Shown one piece after another: positions 1,648 through 13,926 of a DNA stretch of 43,783 bases. Origin of the DNA: an uncultured Candidatus Melainabacteria bacterium (GTDB taxonomy: Bacteria; Cyanobacteriota; Vampirovibrionia; Gastranaerophilales; Gastranaerophilaceae); assembly GCA_949915775.1 (NCBI GenBank), contig CATLEG010000006.1, forward strand, positions 1-43,783, written 5' to 3'. A program made the translations under genes and the position numbers. The notes beneath the pieces are model-generated. The model was not told the DNA's origin. It saw nothing but the letters and a program-made list of their open reading frames with translations, and did no database searches. The first letter of the stretch is position 1. Each line of letters starts with the position of its first letter.

Positions 1648-1700
1648 GTCATTCTGAGGCAATAAGCTTTTGAGATTCTTCGCTAACACTCATAATGACT
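1648..1700. repeat. Palindromic repeat (TCATTCTGAG family), copy 2
   Basis: CGTCATTCTGAGG at the left and ACTCATAATGAC at the right are imperfect inverted arms around GAGATTCTTCGC. The element occupies the spacer between the response regulator and the next gene, mirroring copy 1 in the preceding spacer. Confidence 0.7.
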
Positions 1701-1714
1701 ATAAGCCGTCTACA

Positions 1715-3118
1715 ATGGAAACAATCTTTATGGAAACCACAGTTACAAACAAAACGCTTGAAAAACTTAAATATGACCTTGTAAGAGCAGGGCTTGTTGC
1801 TTATGAAACAATTGAGCAAGCACAAGAAATCGCCTCTTCTCAAAATATTAATATTGGTCAGGCATTAATAAATTCTGGGGTTATAACTGAAGATTCTATT
1901 TTGAAATTTTTAGAAGCAAAACTTCATATTCCATATGTAAATCTTGACGATTATACTCTGGATACTAAATGTCTTAAATTTATAAGTTTTGCAGATGCCA
2001 AACGTTATAAAATTATACCGCTTTTCAAAATCGAAGATACTTTAACAGTCGCAATGGCTGATCCTCTTGATTTGTTTGCAATTGATAAAGTTATTGAAAC
2101 AGCAGAATGTTCAATTGAACCGGTCGTTTCATCAGAAGCTGCTATTTTAAAGAAAATTAATGAATATTACAAAGAAGAAGCAGCAGTTGCCGATATTTAC
2201 ACAGAAGAAGGAACTGAATATGATTGGCGGGATGAATTGCATAGTGAAGATTTGTCCGATACTCATATCCAAAAAATTATCAGTGCAATTTTAAAACAAG
2301 CAATCTTGGAAAATGTTCATGAAGTTACTTTCCAACATGATGATAACGGTTTTGGTGTAAATTTCAAAAAAAACGGCGAGATTTTGAATAAAGGTAATAT
2401 TCCTGCTGTTTTAATTTCTTCCTTTGCGGCTAAACTTAAAACTCTTGCTGAACTTGATTCTTCAGTAAGTGAAGTACCTCAGCTTGGAAAAATAAATTTC
2501 AATGTTGACGGAATAAATGTTGTGGCAAGTATTTCTACTTTCCCTACAATCATGGGCGAGAGAATTTTCTTAAAAATATACAAACCGCCTAAAGCACTTA
2601 ATAAAATTATTAAATCCGAAAACAATATTAATCTAATCAAATCAGCACTCAATAATCCAGGAATAATAATCGTTTGCGGTTCTCCATTAAGCGGTAAAAC
2701 TCATGTTATTTATTCACTTTTGTTAGAAGCTGTTAACAAAAATAAAAATATTATGACTCTTGAAAGTATTGCAAAATACAATCTTAACAGTGTTCATCAA
2801 TGCGAATTGAACGAAAATGTCGGTTTTAATATGGATAAAGCATCAAGATTTATTGAGTTTCAATCGCCTGATATAATTTATCTTGAAGGAATTAAAACTA
2901 AAGATTCTTTCGATTATTTTTCAAGTCTTGTTTTTGAAGACAAAACTATCATCATGGAATTTCTTGCAAATAATATGGAAGATTTGCGTTATAAATTATC
3001 ATTCTCAGATTTTGAAACATTAAAATCAATCATTAGTTGTTTAATATTTATACATTCGCAAGACAGTATAGAAGTTTTTTCAAAAGAAACTATTCAGAAA
3101 TATCTTGGTGCTTTTTAA
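1715..3118 (+). CDS. Degenerate PilB/GspE-like ATPase with MshEN domain
   Basis: The N-terminal ~150 residues match an MshEN/T2SSE_N domain (GQALINSGVITE, then IPYVNLDDY), a fold that in some relatives binds c-di-GMP. The C-terminal half aligns by eye with the PilB/GspE motor. Walker A is intact (GSPLSGKTH) but other motifs are eroded. The Asp-box EDP is ESI, the Walker B region reads SPDIIYLEGIKT, and the His-box segment near FEDKTIIMEF lacks the usual histidines. The tetracysteine zinc site is absent, and at 467 residues it is shorter than usual (~560). Start: the ATG at 1715 or 1730; a TTG further upstream lies inside the repeat. It may be a regulatory or non-motor paralogue rather than a working pilus ATPase. 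Confidence 0.78.
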   Translation: METIFMETTVTNKTLEKLKYDLVRAGLVAYETIEQAQEIASSQNINIGQALINSGVITEDSILKFLEAKLHIPYVNLDDYTLDTKCLKFISFADAKRYKIIPLFKIEDTLTVAMADPLDLFAIDKVIETAECSIEPVVSSEAAILKKINEYYKEEAAVADIYTEEGTEYDWRDELHSEDLSDTHIQKIISAILKQAILENVHEVTFQHDDNGFGVNFKKNGEILNKGNIPAVLISSFAAKLKTLAELDSSVSEVPQLGKINFNVDGINVVASISTFPTIMGERIFLKIYKPPKALNKIIKSENNINLIKSALNNPGIIIVCGSPLSGKTHVIYSLLLEAVNKNKNIMTLESIAKYNLNSVHQCELNENVGFNMDKASRFIEFQSPDIIYLEGIKTKDSFDYFSSLVFEDKTIIMEFLANNMEDLRYKLSFSDFETLKSIISCLIFIHSQDSIEVFSKETIQKYLGAF

Positions 3119-4075: not shown

Positions 4076-4104
4076 TTGACAAACAGCGAAAAATCGGAAA
4101 TAAT
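4076..4104 (+). promoter_or_regulatory. Sigma70-type promoter for the prepilin gene
   Basis: TTGACA (4076-4081), a 17-bp spacer and AATAAT (4099-4104). It is the only good promoter in the 231-bp gap before the ATG at 4234, implying an untranslated leader of about 120 nt. I see no recognisable riboswitch in that leader. Confidence 0.6.
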
Positions 4105-4233
4105 GGGTTAGAAGAAGAATTGAAGCTTGGAAGAACGGAAGTCAAGAGGTCAGGCTATTAAAGGTGCTTCGCACAAAAATAAGTTTCTGGCTTGTCGTCT
4201 TCTTACAATCTGAGCAACTACGGAGGTAAATAT

Positions 4234-5318
4234 ATGTTTAACAAAACTTCACACATCGCCCCCCCCCCAACAGCCGTTTAACAAGGATTTTGGACTGGTT
4301 TTGGTGTAAAATTTTCGTCATCTTGAGCAAAGCGAAGAATCTCAAACCCACCCCTGCCCCTCCCTTACAAAAGGAGGGAACAAAAGAATTACGTCATGCT
4401 GAATTTATTTCAGCATCTCATGACGAACCCTCACCCGAATTATTGTGTGCGAAGCACGATAAGAACTTATCGACCTATCGTTTTAATGTCTTAAAGACTG
4501 ATAAAACCCCCTCCCTAACCACCTCTCACAAACGATACTCAATCGTTTGTTCGGCAGAGTCCCCTGGAGAGGGGAAAGGATTCACTCTGGCCGAGGTTTT
4601 TTCACCCTGCCGAAAGGTTAAATTAGACTTTGGGTTTACTCTAGCGGAAGTCTTAATCACCCTTGGCATTATCGGGATTGTGGCGGCGGTAACTTTACCT
4701 TCTGTTATTCATAAGTTTCAAGCTAAAGTTCTACAGAGTCAGTTCAAAGTCGCTGATACAATCATAAACGAATCTGTTCAGTATGTTTATAATGAATTCG
4801 GAATTGATTCCTCAGCCAAATCATATAGTAGTTATTGTAGAAACGGGGCGTGTGTTGATAATGGTGTTGCAAAAGAAATGAATGAATATTGGATAAAAGT
4901 TCTAACTGCAAAAGGTGCAACACAACCAAAACCATACGCTAACTTTGCCTGGGGCATAGGATATGATAAAGATGCATCATATTCTTTTATTTTTCCCGGA
5001 ACATGGTATACAGGATTAGATAATAAACCACTTTATATAATGAAAAATGGAATACTGATTTCACCAATACAAATGCTTGATGGATGGCTAATTGGAGTTG
5101 ATATTAACGGTCCAAAACGCGGTCCAAATATTATAGGTGTTGATATATTTATGTGGGGCGATCAACATAGAAATAGAAGTTGGAAAAATGAATGCAAACT
5201 TTATAAAGAAAAAATGACTCAACCAGATTGGCAACAAAGAGGTTGTTACAATTATGCTAAACTAAACCAATATCCGTATGATACTTCAAAAGGTTATTGG
5301 GAAGGTTTAAAATGGTAA
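4234..5318 (+). CDS. Type IV prepilin-like protein, start out of frame across C10
   Basis: The downstream frame (open from 4242) encodes a prepilin. It has G|FTLAEVLITLGIIG at 4632-4676 with Glu at mature +5, a hydrophobic helix, then a C-terminal domain with VDINGPKRGPNIIGVDIFMW and three late cysteines (mature part ~228 residues). No ATG lies in this frame before the motif; a TTG exists at 4290. The only ATG with a strong Shine-Dalgarno (CGGAGG) is at 4234. It reads MFNKTSHIAPPP then stops at 4279 because the C10 tract (4259-4268) leaves it one base out of frame. Eleven Cs would fuse them into a ~361-residue protein. The leader (~134 residues) is built of dispersed repeats and holds a first FTLAEV copy at 4581. 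Likely a phase-variable surface pilin/pseudopilin, or a single-base assembly error. Confidence 0.75.
4259..4268 (+). repeat. Poly-C tract (C10), candidate phase-variation site
   Basis: Ten consecutive Cs lie nine codons after an ATG with a strong Shine-Dalgarno and before the prepilin frame. Tracts of this kind mutate by slipped-strand mispairing. One added C (or two lost) restores the full prepilin frame. Confidence 0.75.
4316..4345. repeat. Repeat fragment translated within the prepilin leader
   Basis: CGTCATCTTGAGCAAAGCGAAGAATCTC, a relative of the TCATTCTGAG family, is read in frame as VILSKAKNL. Adjacent blocks 4352-4380 (CCCCTCCC...GGAGGG) and 4393-4427 (CGTCATGCTGAATTTATTTC...) are two further repeat families in the same open frame. 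Confidence 0.65.
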
Positions 5319-11982: not shown

Positions 11983-13152
11983 CTATCGAGGCATATTTTT
12001 GAAAAAATCCTTATCTGAGAGAGCTTTTACCGTACAGCCTGCACCGTTCATAGTACTATTACTGTTTGAACAATAATCATCACGTATACTATAATAAAAA
12101 GTACCTTTTGCTCCCATTGGTAAAAACCTGCCTTCATTGTCTATCTGAAACATAAATAGATCTTGCCCCAAATAATTAGGTTTTTTATGAACTCCGTTCA
12201 CATCAACAGAAATAAAAAGCATTTCGGTATCTCCATTTTCAATCATAACAAACATACTATCGTTCATAATAAACTGACCGTCATCAAATCTATTAATATA
12301 AATATCATTTTTCCCGTTAAAATTTTTGTAAAAGTTTTTATTAGCGGGTATACAAGCTTTAGCAACAAATGGTAGTGCGCCATAACCACAGTCTTTTACA
12401 TTTTTTATATATTTCATTAAAATAGGTTTTAATTCATAAATCTTTAATTGGGATGGTTTCAGAGGTTCTCCATTTTCTGCTTGATAAAGCATAAGTGCCT
12501 GACTAATTGTGGAATAAGCTTTTTTTAAACCTGTTTGGAGTTCTCTATTTTGTTTATCTTGTATCAATGATGGCAAAGTCATCGCCGCCACAACACCGAT
12601 TATGCCGAGGGTTATAAGAACCTCCGCTAGAGTAAACCCAAAGTTTAATTTAACCTTCCGGCAGGGTGAAAAAACCTCTGCCAGAGTAAAGGCACATTTT
12701 ACCCTCTCTCTTTGTGAGAGGGTAGAATTTGTTAGTGAGCTAAATGCGAACTTACAAATTCGGGAGAGGGTAGGGGTATTATCAGTCTTTAAGACATTAA
12801 GACGATAGGTCGATAAGTTCTTTAAGGTGTACTTAGCACAGAAAGAGTCATTGCGAGGTGCCGAAGGCACTCTCCACTCTGATATTGGTACATCTTTTAT
12901 GACATTGTGAGGACGTGGCAATCCATTTATTATTGAATATTTTCTGGATTGCTTCAGTCGCCTACGGCTCCTTCGCAATGACGTGCTTAAAATTGCACCA
13001 ACATCTTGAGAAGCTGAAACCACTCCAAGAGGACCCATTTTCCACAAAATCAATAGATTTTGGGAAAAGGAGGCAAGTTCAGCATGACAAATATCGTCAT
13101 TGCGAGCGTTAGCGTGGCAAGCCAGATTCTTAGTGTTGTTTGATTTTTTCAT
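11983..13152 (-). CDS. Type IV prepilin-like protein with a giant repeat-built leader
   Basis: The frame is open for 389 codons from the ATG at 13152 (MKKSNNTKNL, preceded by AAAGGGAAAACT). The cleavage site G172|F173 TLAEVLITLGIIG lies at residues 172-185, with an additional FTLAEV at 155-160. The mature part (~217 residues) has a pilin helix and a C-terminal FISVDVNGVHKKPNYLGQDLFMF motif, matching the other prepilin here. Residues 11-150 are translated dispersed repeats (ARNDD, SLRRSRRRLKQSRKYS, NLSTYRLNVLKTD, LSQRERV), including a block shared with the first prepilin. No ATG lies between residue 40 and the cleavage motif, so either the long leader is made and removed, or translation starts at a non-ATG codon. 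Secreted pilus/pseudopilus subunit by family; partners are not in the window. Confidence 0.82.
   Translation of the reverse strand: MKKSNNTKNLACHANARNDDICHAELASFSQNLLILWKMGPLGVVSASQDVGAILSTSLRRSRRRLKQSRKYSIINGLPRPHNVIKDVPISEWRVPSAPRNDSFCAKYTLKNLSTYRLNVLKTDNTPTLSRICKFAFSSLTNSTLSQRERVKCAFTLAEVFSPCRKVKLNFGFTLAEVLITLGIIGVVAAMTLPSLIQDKQNRELQTGLKKAYSTISQALMLYQAENGEPLKPSQLKIYELKPILMKYIKNVKDCGYGALPFVAKACIPANKNFYKNFNGKNDIYINRFDDGQFIMNDSMFVMIENGDTEMLFISVDVNGVHKKPNYLGQDLFMFQIDNEGRFLPMGAKGTFYYSIRDDYCSNSNSTMNGAGCTVKALSDKDFFKNMPR
12781..12835. repeat. Repeat block shared by both prepilin leaders and 39105
   Basis: ATCAGTCTTTAAGACATTAA...GATAGGTCGATAAGTTCTT corresponds on the opposite strand to 4460-4505 in the other prepilin leader (GAACTTATCGACCTATCG...). 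It is also related to AAGTCATTAAGACGATAAGACG at 39113-39134 outside any gene. Translated in the prepilins as NLSTYRxNVLKTD. Confidence 0.75.
12901..12983. repeat. Large palindromic repeat (TCATTGCGAGG family), copy inside prepilin leader
   Basis: GACATTGTGAGGACGTGGCAATCCA at the left and TGGATTGCTTCAGTCGCC...CTTCGCAATGACG at the right form long imperfect inverted arms around a loop ATTATTGAATATTTTC. Almost the same as 13649-13747, and translated here as SLRRSRRRLKQSRKYSIING. Confidence 0.8.
13093..13130. repeat. Short TCATTGCGAG-family repeat near the prepilin start
   Basis: CGTCATTGCGAGCGTTAGCGTGGCAAGCCAG lies from codon 8 or so of the prepilin and is read on the minus strand as LACHANARND. 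Confidence 0.65.
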
Positions 13153-13199: not shown

Positions 13200-13480
13200 C
13201 CCCTCACCTGAAATTCTAACTTTCGCATAATAGCTCAAGTTGAATTTCTTCCCTCTCTTGAATTTGCTCCACGCTCACAGAGTTTCGCTTATTGCACATA
13301 CGTGCACCTCGCTCAATCTGCTCGCTATCCGGACTCGTTTTACTCCGTCCGTCCGCAAATCCGCTCTCCCGCAAGGGGCGAGGGGATATAGCATTGTTCC
13401 CTCCCCATGGGGGAGGGTTAGGGAGGGGGCTATTTTTAATGGATTGCCGCGTCGCTTCGCTCCTCGCAATGACGTTATTT
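13200..13480. repeat. Repeat cluster: CCCTCACC and TCATTGCGAG families
   Basis: Contains CCCCTCACCTGAAATTC..., CTCTCCCGCAAGGGGCGAGGGG (hairpin), CTCCCCATGGGGGAG (hairpin) and TGGATTGCCGCGTCGCTTCGCTCCTCGCAATGACG. I see no independent gene. The long minus-strand frame 13275-13886 is simply these repeats read through. Confidence 0.7.
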
Positions 13481-13560
13481 GAAATGCTAAAATAAATTCA
13501 GCATAATATTTTTCGTCATTTCGGGCTTGACCCGCAATCGCATACTTTTCACGACTATGA

Positions 13561-13640
13561 GATCCTGAATCAAGTTCAGGATGACATAAACCGTCATTGC
13601 GAAGTGCCGAAGGCACTCCCACATTAGGTTTTGGTGCATT
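13561..13640. repeat. Repeat cluster: hairpin GATCCTGAA/TTCAGGATG and TCATTGCGAAG
   Basis: GATCCTGAATCAAGTTCAGGATGAC is a near-perfect hairpin. It is followed by CCGTCATTGCGAAGTGCCGAAGGCACTCCC, which also occurs with small changes at 12850-12880 inside the prepilin leader. Confidence 0.65.
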
Positions 13641-13648
13641 ATTCAATA

Positions 13649-13747
13649 CGTCATTGCGAGGACGAACGAAGTGAGGACGTGGCAATCCATTAATTATTGA
13701 ATATTTTCTGGATTGCTTCAGTCGCCTTCGGCTCCTTCGCAATGACG
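13649..13747. repeat. Large palindromic repeat (TCATTGCGAGG family), intergenic copy
   Basis: A 99-bp inverted-repeat unit: CGTCATTGCGAGGACG...GTGGCAATCCA, loop TTAATTATTGAATATTTTC, then TGGATTGCTTCAGTCG...CTTCGCAATGACG. It is the best-preserved copy in the window and matches 12901-12983 closely, with the same loop. Confidence 0.85.
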
Positions 13748-13815
13748 AATTAAAAGTTTCACCAATACCTAGGTGGAAGGTGTCTTCGACAACCTCTACA
13801 AATATTTTACAAGTA

Positions 13816-13926
13816 TCACCAAGCTTTATCGGCGTGGCTACGCACGTAGTGCCCCCCCCCGACGGGATTTTCCAGCATAAATTCAAACTTTTTCAACTCT
13901 TCAAGCTCACTCGAAAATCTCTTCAT
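13816..13926 (-). pseudogene. Short ORF ending after a G9 tract, possible gene remnant
   Basis: From the ATG at 13926 the minus strand reads MKRFSSELEELKKFEFMLEN-PVGGG and stops at 13816 (36 codons). A G9 run (plus-strand C9 at 13852-13860) sits at codons 22-25. Loss of one G would open the frame through the repeats down to 13275. A TATAAT lies upstream. This repeats the architecture at 4234 (ATG, homopolymer, repeat-filled frame) but no prepilin motif follows. It may be a decayed relative. Confidence 0.35.
13852..13860. repeat. Poly-C/G tract (9 bp)
   Basis: Nine Cs on the plus strand within GTGCCCCCCCCCGACGGG. Only two such runs occur in this AT-rich window, both just downstream of a start codon. 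Confidence 0.7.

Follow-up and report, generated by a model that had tools for sequence, protein, structure and literature searches.

The locus raises the question of whether a run of ten cytosines just behind a start codon serves as a one-base switch for a type IV pilin gene. The window, which denotes the whole stretch of DNA analyzed (43,783 nucleotides; contig CATLEG010000006.1 of an uncultured Candidatus Melainabacteria bacterium), contains on its plus strand an ATG (4234-4236) that is preceded at 7 nt by the Shine-Dalgarno (SD) sequence GGAGG (4222-4226) and followed by a C10 tract (4259-4268). At this tract length, the ATG opens only a 15-aa ORF (4234-4281, MFNKTSHIAPPPTAV*). The prepilin frame stays open between the tract and 5318, its FTLAEV motif has no in-frame ATG upstream, and the addition of one C links ATG 4234 to it, giving a 361-aa prepilin. 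A promoter-like sequence, TTGACA-17-AATAAT, is located at 4076-4104 (TTGACA at 4076-4081 and AATAAT at 4099-4104), and an in-frame TTG (4290-4292) with AAGGA only 2 nt upstream represents a poor alternative start. The preliminary description had claimed the C10 tract one base off the prepilin frame, the SD-preceded ATG with products of 15 and 361 residues at ten and eleven Cs, the lack of an ATG in the prepilin frame before FTLAEV, and the promoter at 4076; all of these held when the sequence and its translation were inspected, and the promoter was found to be conserved in other copies of the same module. Nine-base C runs were found at two sites in the window, compared with 0.01 per window obtained by shuffling.

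The leader in the ON state would be 134 aa, as it is lengthened by in-frame dispersed repeats. A leader of this length bearing repeats is probably tolerated, because plain prepilins of this genome also have long leaders, e.g., the one at 11983-13152, whose motif lies at residue 171. Dispersed repeats of the RHAEFISAS and VILSKAKNL types, in frame and open, occur at 4310-4577 of the window and in many prepilin leaders of the same genome, giving leaders of at least 100 aa. A spare FTLAEV motif (GKGFTLAEVFSPCRKVKLDFGFTLAEV, 4581-4598) lies in the long leader upstream of the real cleavage site, and several such motifs are arranged in tandem at locus L033.

The encoded protein and the pilus machinery

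The frame restored by an eleventh C ends in a mature type IV pilin of 227 aa (4635-5318, plus strand; N-terminus FTLAEVLITLGIIGIVAA), as judged from PF07963, a profile match to solved pilins, and a structure model. PF07963 scored above its cut-off in the genome scan (C6:4632-4694), and below it (17.6 against 21.2 bits) when the 228-aa stretch was scanned alone. The prepilin signature is present, comprising G or A before F+1, E5, and a hydrophobic N-terminal stretch, with FTLAE invariant. A profile built from 26 homologues matched a Geobacter pilin (9e-5) and PilA (4.5e-4) over the N-terminal helix only. The structure model (pLDDT 80) contains a 53-residue N-terminal helix (residues 3-55); pilins were among its best structural matches in VIA-align but the matches were weak (Z of 3.5 and 3.1), and Foldseek of the model against the PDB gave no match at E 0.001.

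A PilB/GspE-like assembly ATPase (MshEN and T2SSE by Pfam) is encoded in the window at 1670-3118 on the plus strand. An A24 prepilin peptidase was not detected in the window genome by Peptidase_A24 or its N-terminal domain, despite 70 PF07963 prepilin motifs in the genome scan. One match was found in 22 of 23 genus-mates; the missing peptidase is most likely due to a gap or to divergence.

Recurrence of the tract in the window genome

The segment at 4076-4420 (plus strand), comprising the promoter, 5' UTR, SD, start, leader, C tract, and a following repeat, is a dispersed repeat and is referred to as module A. It has 19 matches in the window genome, its own copy included. The promoter, SD, start, and tract are all kept across aligned copies, with the SD invariant and the promoter kept in 13 of 14; the sequence immediately upstream of the promoter is unrelated among copies, and the copied unit therefore starts at the promoter. 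Some copies lead nowhere.

A second leader family, family B (MKRFSSELEELKKFEFMLENPVGGG...), bears a G run and is present in approximately 20 copies, one of which contains the second tract of the window, and other unrelated leaders bear C15, G10, G13, and further runs. Altogether, 51 distinct G/C runs of nine or more (36 of exactly ten) were counted in selected stretches of the window genome, which do not cover the whole of it; approximately 0.09 runs of ten or more would be expected genome-wide under an order-1 model. A tract in the open frame was found at 14 prepilins among those with a readable upstream region, approximately 20 prepilin motifs were truncated by contig ends, and many others had a plain ATG with SD. 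Switchable and plain prepilins exist side by side in this genome, switchability being inferred from sequence.

The second tract (G9, 13852-13860, minus strand) was claimed to follow a start codon and precede a repeat-filled frame, and this held: it lies downstream of ATG 13926. The frame that it opens, read at G8 as a family B leader ORF of 216 aa (13275-13926, minus strand), consists of translated repeats, but it does not lead into a prepilin. It ends near 13275 without reaching the nearby second prepilin (11983-13152, minus strand; sequence and Pfam), which is plain, with its own SD and ATG and no tract in frame. At L044:300-1520 (minus strand), a 436-aa non-prepilin frame that is open at G14 and has no Pfam match has a G13 run close to its start; this may be a phase-variable gene of a different kind.

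Distribution among relatives

Ten-base C/G runs occur in 21 of 23 genus-mates, mostly by the dozen, and are few or absent in other families of the order. In the genus-mate G007, 50 tracts were found in the stretches examined, 46 of which had a length of ten, and at 48 loci an SD-preceded start is in frame with a prepilin, either as it stands or after a one-base change. Using a strict pattern (G10, 11-41 nt, FTLAEVL), matches were obtained in 59 of the 383 genomes of the family, which represent 12 of its 41 genera, and the reversed pattern used as a control gave 0 matches. The strict tract-prepilin pattern was not found outside the family in the phylum sample, and a G9-prepilin pattern search of viral contigs gave no match. 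The pattern search with the 342-aa frame of the window retrieved no relative in named genome contigs because the leader of this frame is repeat-derived and was missed by the patterns. The suggestion that the arrangement recurs genome-wide is therefore supported by comparison, which revealed dozens of tract-prepilin genes per genome.

In contigs C1 and C2 of G007, long stretches have their C runs on a single strand (the minus strand throughout 21-581 kb of C2), which looks as if linked to replication direction or gene orientation.

Default reading frame of tract-prepilin loci

We pooled 207 tract-prepilin loci from approximately 52 genomes, in which the tract begins a median of 28 nt past the start codon and the residue preceding the cleavage site is G or A (206 of 207 loci). 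The assembled tract length corresponded to OFF in 184 loci (89%) and ON in 23, compared with 67% OFF expected if one-third of the loci were ON by chance (p about 1e-13). A few loci lacking a genome name may belong to genomes already counted. Because loci of the same genome are related by descent, each genome was also scored once by its majority state; this stricter count gave 45 OFF, 3 ON, and 4 tied (p about 9e-6).

The direction of the required change differed among lineages. A length of 10 needs +1 in the window's genus and its allies, a length of 11 needs -1 in SIG30, Zag_111, and Ca. Scatousia, and a length of 12 or 13 needs -1 in others. OFF is the default, with the direction of the needed shift being a habit of the lineage. 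At length 10, +1 was needed in 92 loci, no change in 2, and -1 in none, with all codon phases and both G and C represented (pooled from G007, CALUVV, CALUYO, FR9004, G018, CALURL, and G000, the window genome). This one-sided need is not predicted by selection for default OFF alone. Shared descent of leaders accounts for part of it, and a fast return from 11 to 10, by which the ON state would be brief, can be offered only as an idea.

Integrity of OFF genes and one-base ON/OFF pairs

The OFF prepilins were intact, with a median of 229 aa and 98% of at least 150 aa, compared with a median of 6 aa for the other frames. For three close pairs with both members OFF, dN/dS was 0.12, 0.19, and 0.13, and OFF genes remain under purifying selection. 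Near-identical leaders were found to differ between ON and OFF by exactly one tract base in L218 (G11) and L222 (G10), and likewise in L146 (C10) and L149 (C11) and in L156 (G11) and L167 (G10). The syntenic pilin orthologues L154 and L158 are 94% identical in their mature part, and their leaders are unrelated, both with G10 and OFF. This pair points to leader replacement or very fast leader divergence, with the switch persisting through leader turnover.

Proposed mechanism

The most likely explanation is phase variation of a large pilin repertoire by DNA replication slippage, with OFF as the default. In this model, a leader run of approximately ten Gs or Cs separates the start codon from the FTLAEV cleavage site. 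A tract of the usual length (10 in the window's genus) would put the ribosome out of frame and lead it to a stop after a few tens of residues (OFF), and slippage by one base during replication (to 11 in the window's genus) would restore the frame and give the full prepilin (ON). The prepilin peptidase should cut off the leader, and the mature pilin would then be identical regardless of the residues that the tract encodes; as the tract lies within the removable leader, switching would not alter the mature pilin. With tens of genes switching independently, each cell would make a small random subset of pilins.

The model accounts for why the arrangement recurs, why OFF genes remain intact, why ON/OFF pairs differ by one base, and why the tract is placed in a removable leader. 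The frame rule, the recurrence, the OFF bias, the intactness of OFF genes, and the one-base differences among close copies are shown. A change of length within a population, production of the pilin when ON, and its arrival at the surface are inferred from sequence alone, without data on within-strain length variation or expression. The earlier proposal that slippage switches a surface pilin is thus supported by comparison and not proven, and an RNA route remains possible. Counting against the model are the strikingly uniform assembled lengths (46 of 50 at 10 in G007), the one-sided need for +1 at length 10 (92 vs. 2 vs. 0), the repeat inserts in the 134-aa ON leader of the window, and the lack of a detected prepilin peptidase in the window genome. 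Loss of MutS as a driver was set aside, as two MutS_V matches were found in the window genome.

Alternative explanations

The main rival is recoding at the RNA level, in which slippage of RNA polymerase on the G/C run, or a ribosomal frameshift there, yields a fixed fraction of full-length product from DNA that stays out of frame. In its favor are the uniform length, the one-sided +1 within the clade in G and C runs and all three codon phases, the purifying selection on OFF genes, and the known rescue of frames by homopolymer transcriptional slippage in bacteria (PMC1088944, PMC2831843). Against it, the needed direction varies by genus (lengths of 11 or 12-13 need -1 elsewhere), the same genomes contain ON copies with tracts differing by one base, and the well-described bacterial cases involve A/T runs (PMC1088944). 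RNA recoding is therefore considered unlikely, although it is not excluded. A bolder reading, also unlikely, regards the near-fixed 10-base run as a genus-wide recoding element acting at both the DNA and RNA levels: tens of pilins would be made at a low, set fraction through +1 slippage of RNA polymerase or a ribosomal shift of -1, and DNA slippage to 11 would give occasional full expression.

Alternatively, the tract may be a passenger of the repeat, with a constitutive gene translated from TTG 4290, perhaps through re-initiation once the 15-aa peptide has ended. This TTG is in frame, lies 8 nt past the stop, and is kept in most module A copies, among which a length of 10 is near fixed. However, AAGGA is too near, at 2 nt from the TTG, to make it other than a poor start, and the reading cannot account for relatives with 20-aa leaders, which have no start between the tract and FTLAEV; neutral tracts would moreover be ON in 1/3 of the loci, compared with the observed 11%. 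We regard this explanation as very unlikely.

Undercalling in sequencing or assembly, by which true tracts would be one base longer and the genes in frame, is similarly improbable. Nearly all tracts in the clade need exactly +1, and PCR stutter rises with tract length (PMC4965091). Against this, other genera need -1 at lengths of 11-13, the same assemblies also contain ON lengths, and reported stutter keeps the true length as the main peak for G8-G11 (PMC4965091). Frameshifted pseudogenes heading to loss, for which the out-of-frame state of most assembled loci and the module copies leading nowhere could be cited, are all but excluded by the intact mature frames and low dN/dS of OFF genes and by a shift that is always at the tract.

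Comparison with known systems

Phase variation by DNA slippage, if the preferred reading is correct, would mean that cells probably diversify their surface by chance. Within a sister line of cyanobacteria that lives in the gut and is non-photosynthetic, many genera have apparent switches in tens of pilin genes per genome, and in some species most pilins may be controlled by default in this way. Such control would account for surface variation of an uncultured commensal against phages, hosts, or neighbours. Automated annotation will probably label such genes as broken or misplace their starts. The best-known cases of homopolymer phase variation come from host-adapted pathogens, and no account of phase variation in Gastranaerophilales or Melainabacteria was found in the open-access literature, to which the search was limited.

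Campylobacter jejuni NCTC11168 has 29 polyG/polyC contingency loci, and its G8-G11 tracts switch at measurable rates; PCR stutter inflates the apparent variation (PMC4965091), and read counts therefore need calibration. As in C. jejuni, many G/C runs of approximately 8-12 are present, with ON/OFF changes of one base and combinatorial states. Campylobacter loci span many kinds of surface genes. In contrast to C. jejuni, nearly all tracts here switch one family, the prepilins, and their lengths cluster more tightly at one value.

Phase variation of Neisseria pilC relies on a homopolymer tract in the reading frame (PMC5953494), and both systems have a G/C tract within a pilus gene. The pilC tract lies in the part encoding the signal peptide and leaves the mature protein unaltered. 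Neisseria has one or two such pilus-modulating genes, whereas here the pilin subunits themselves are affected, in tens per genome. As in pilE/pilS antigenic variation (PMC5953494), many variant pilins are kept in reserve, and most are silent at any given moment. However, pilS copies are silent and recombine into pilE, whereas here whole genes each have their own start and switch, and module A genes additionally have their own promoter. The loci do not fit variation of the pilE/pilS type, as module A copies have a promoter, SD, start, and tract and OFF genes are full length. Neisseria Opa proteins (PMC5953494) likewise form a multi-copy surface family in which each copy is switched independently by a repeat near its start, with the CTTCT repeat lying in the leader; Opa genes combine pentamer repeats with outer-membrane proteins, whereas the loci described here combine G/C runs with pilins. 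Homopolymer phase variation and the phase variation of Neisseria pilus genes are thus already known (PMC5953494), and what is likely to be new here is the scale, the restriction to a single target family, and the rule that OFF is the default.
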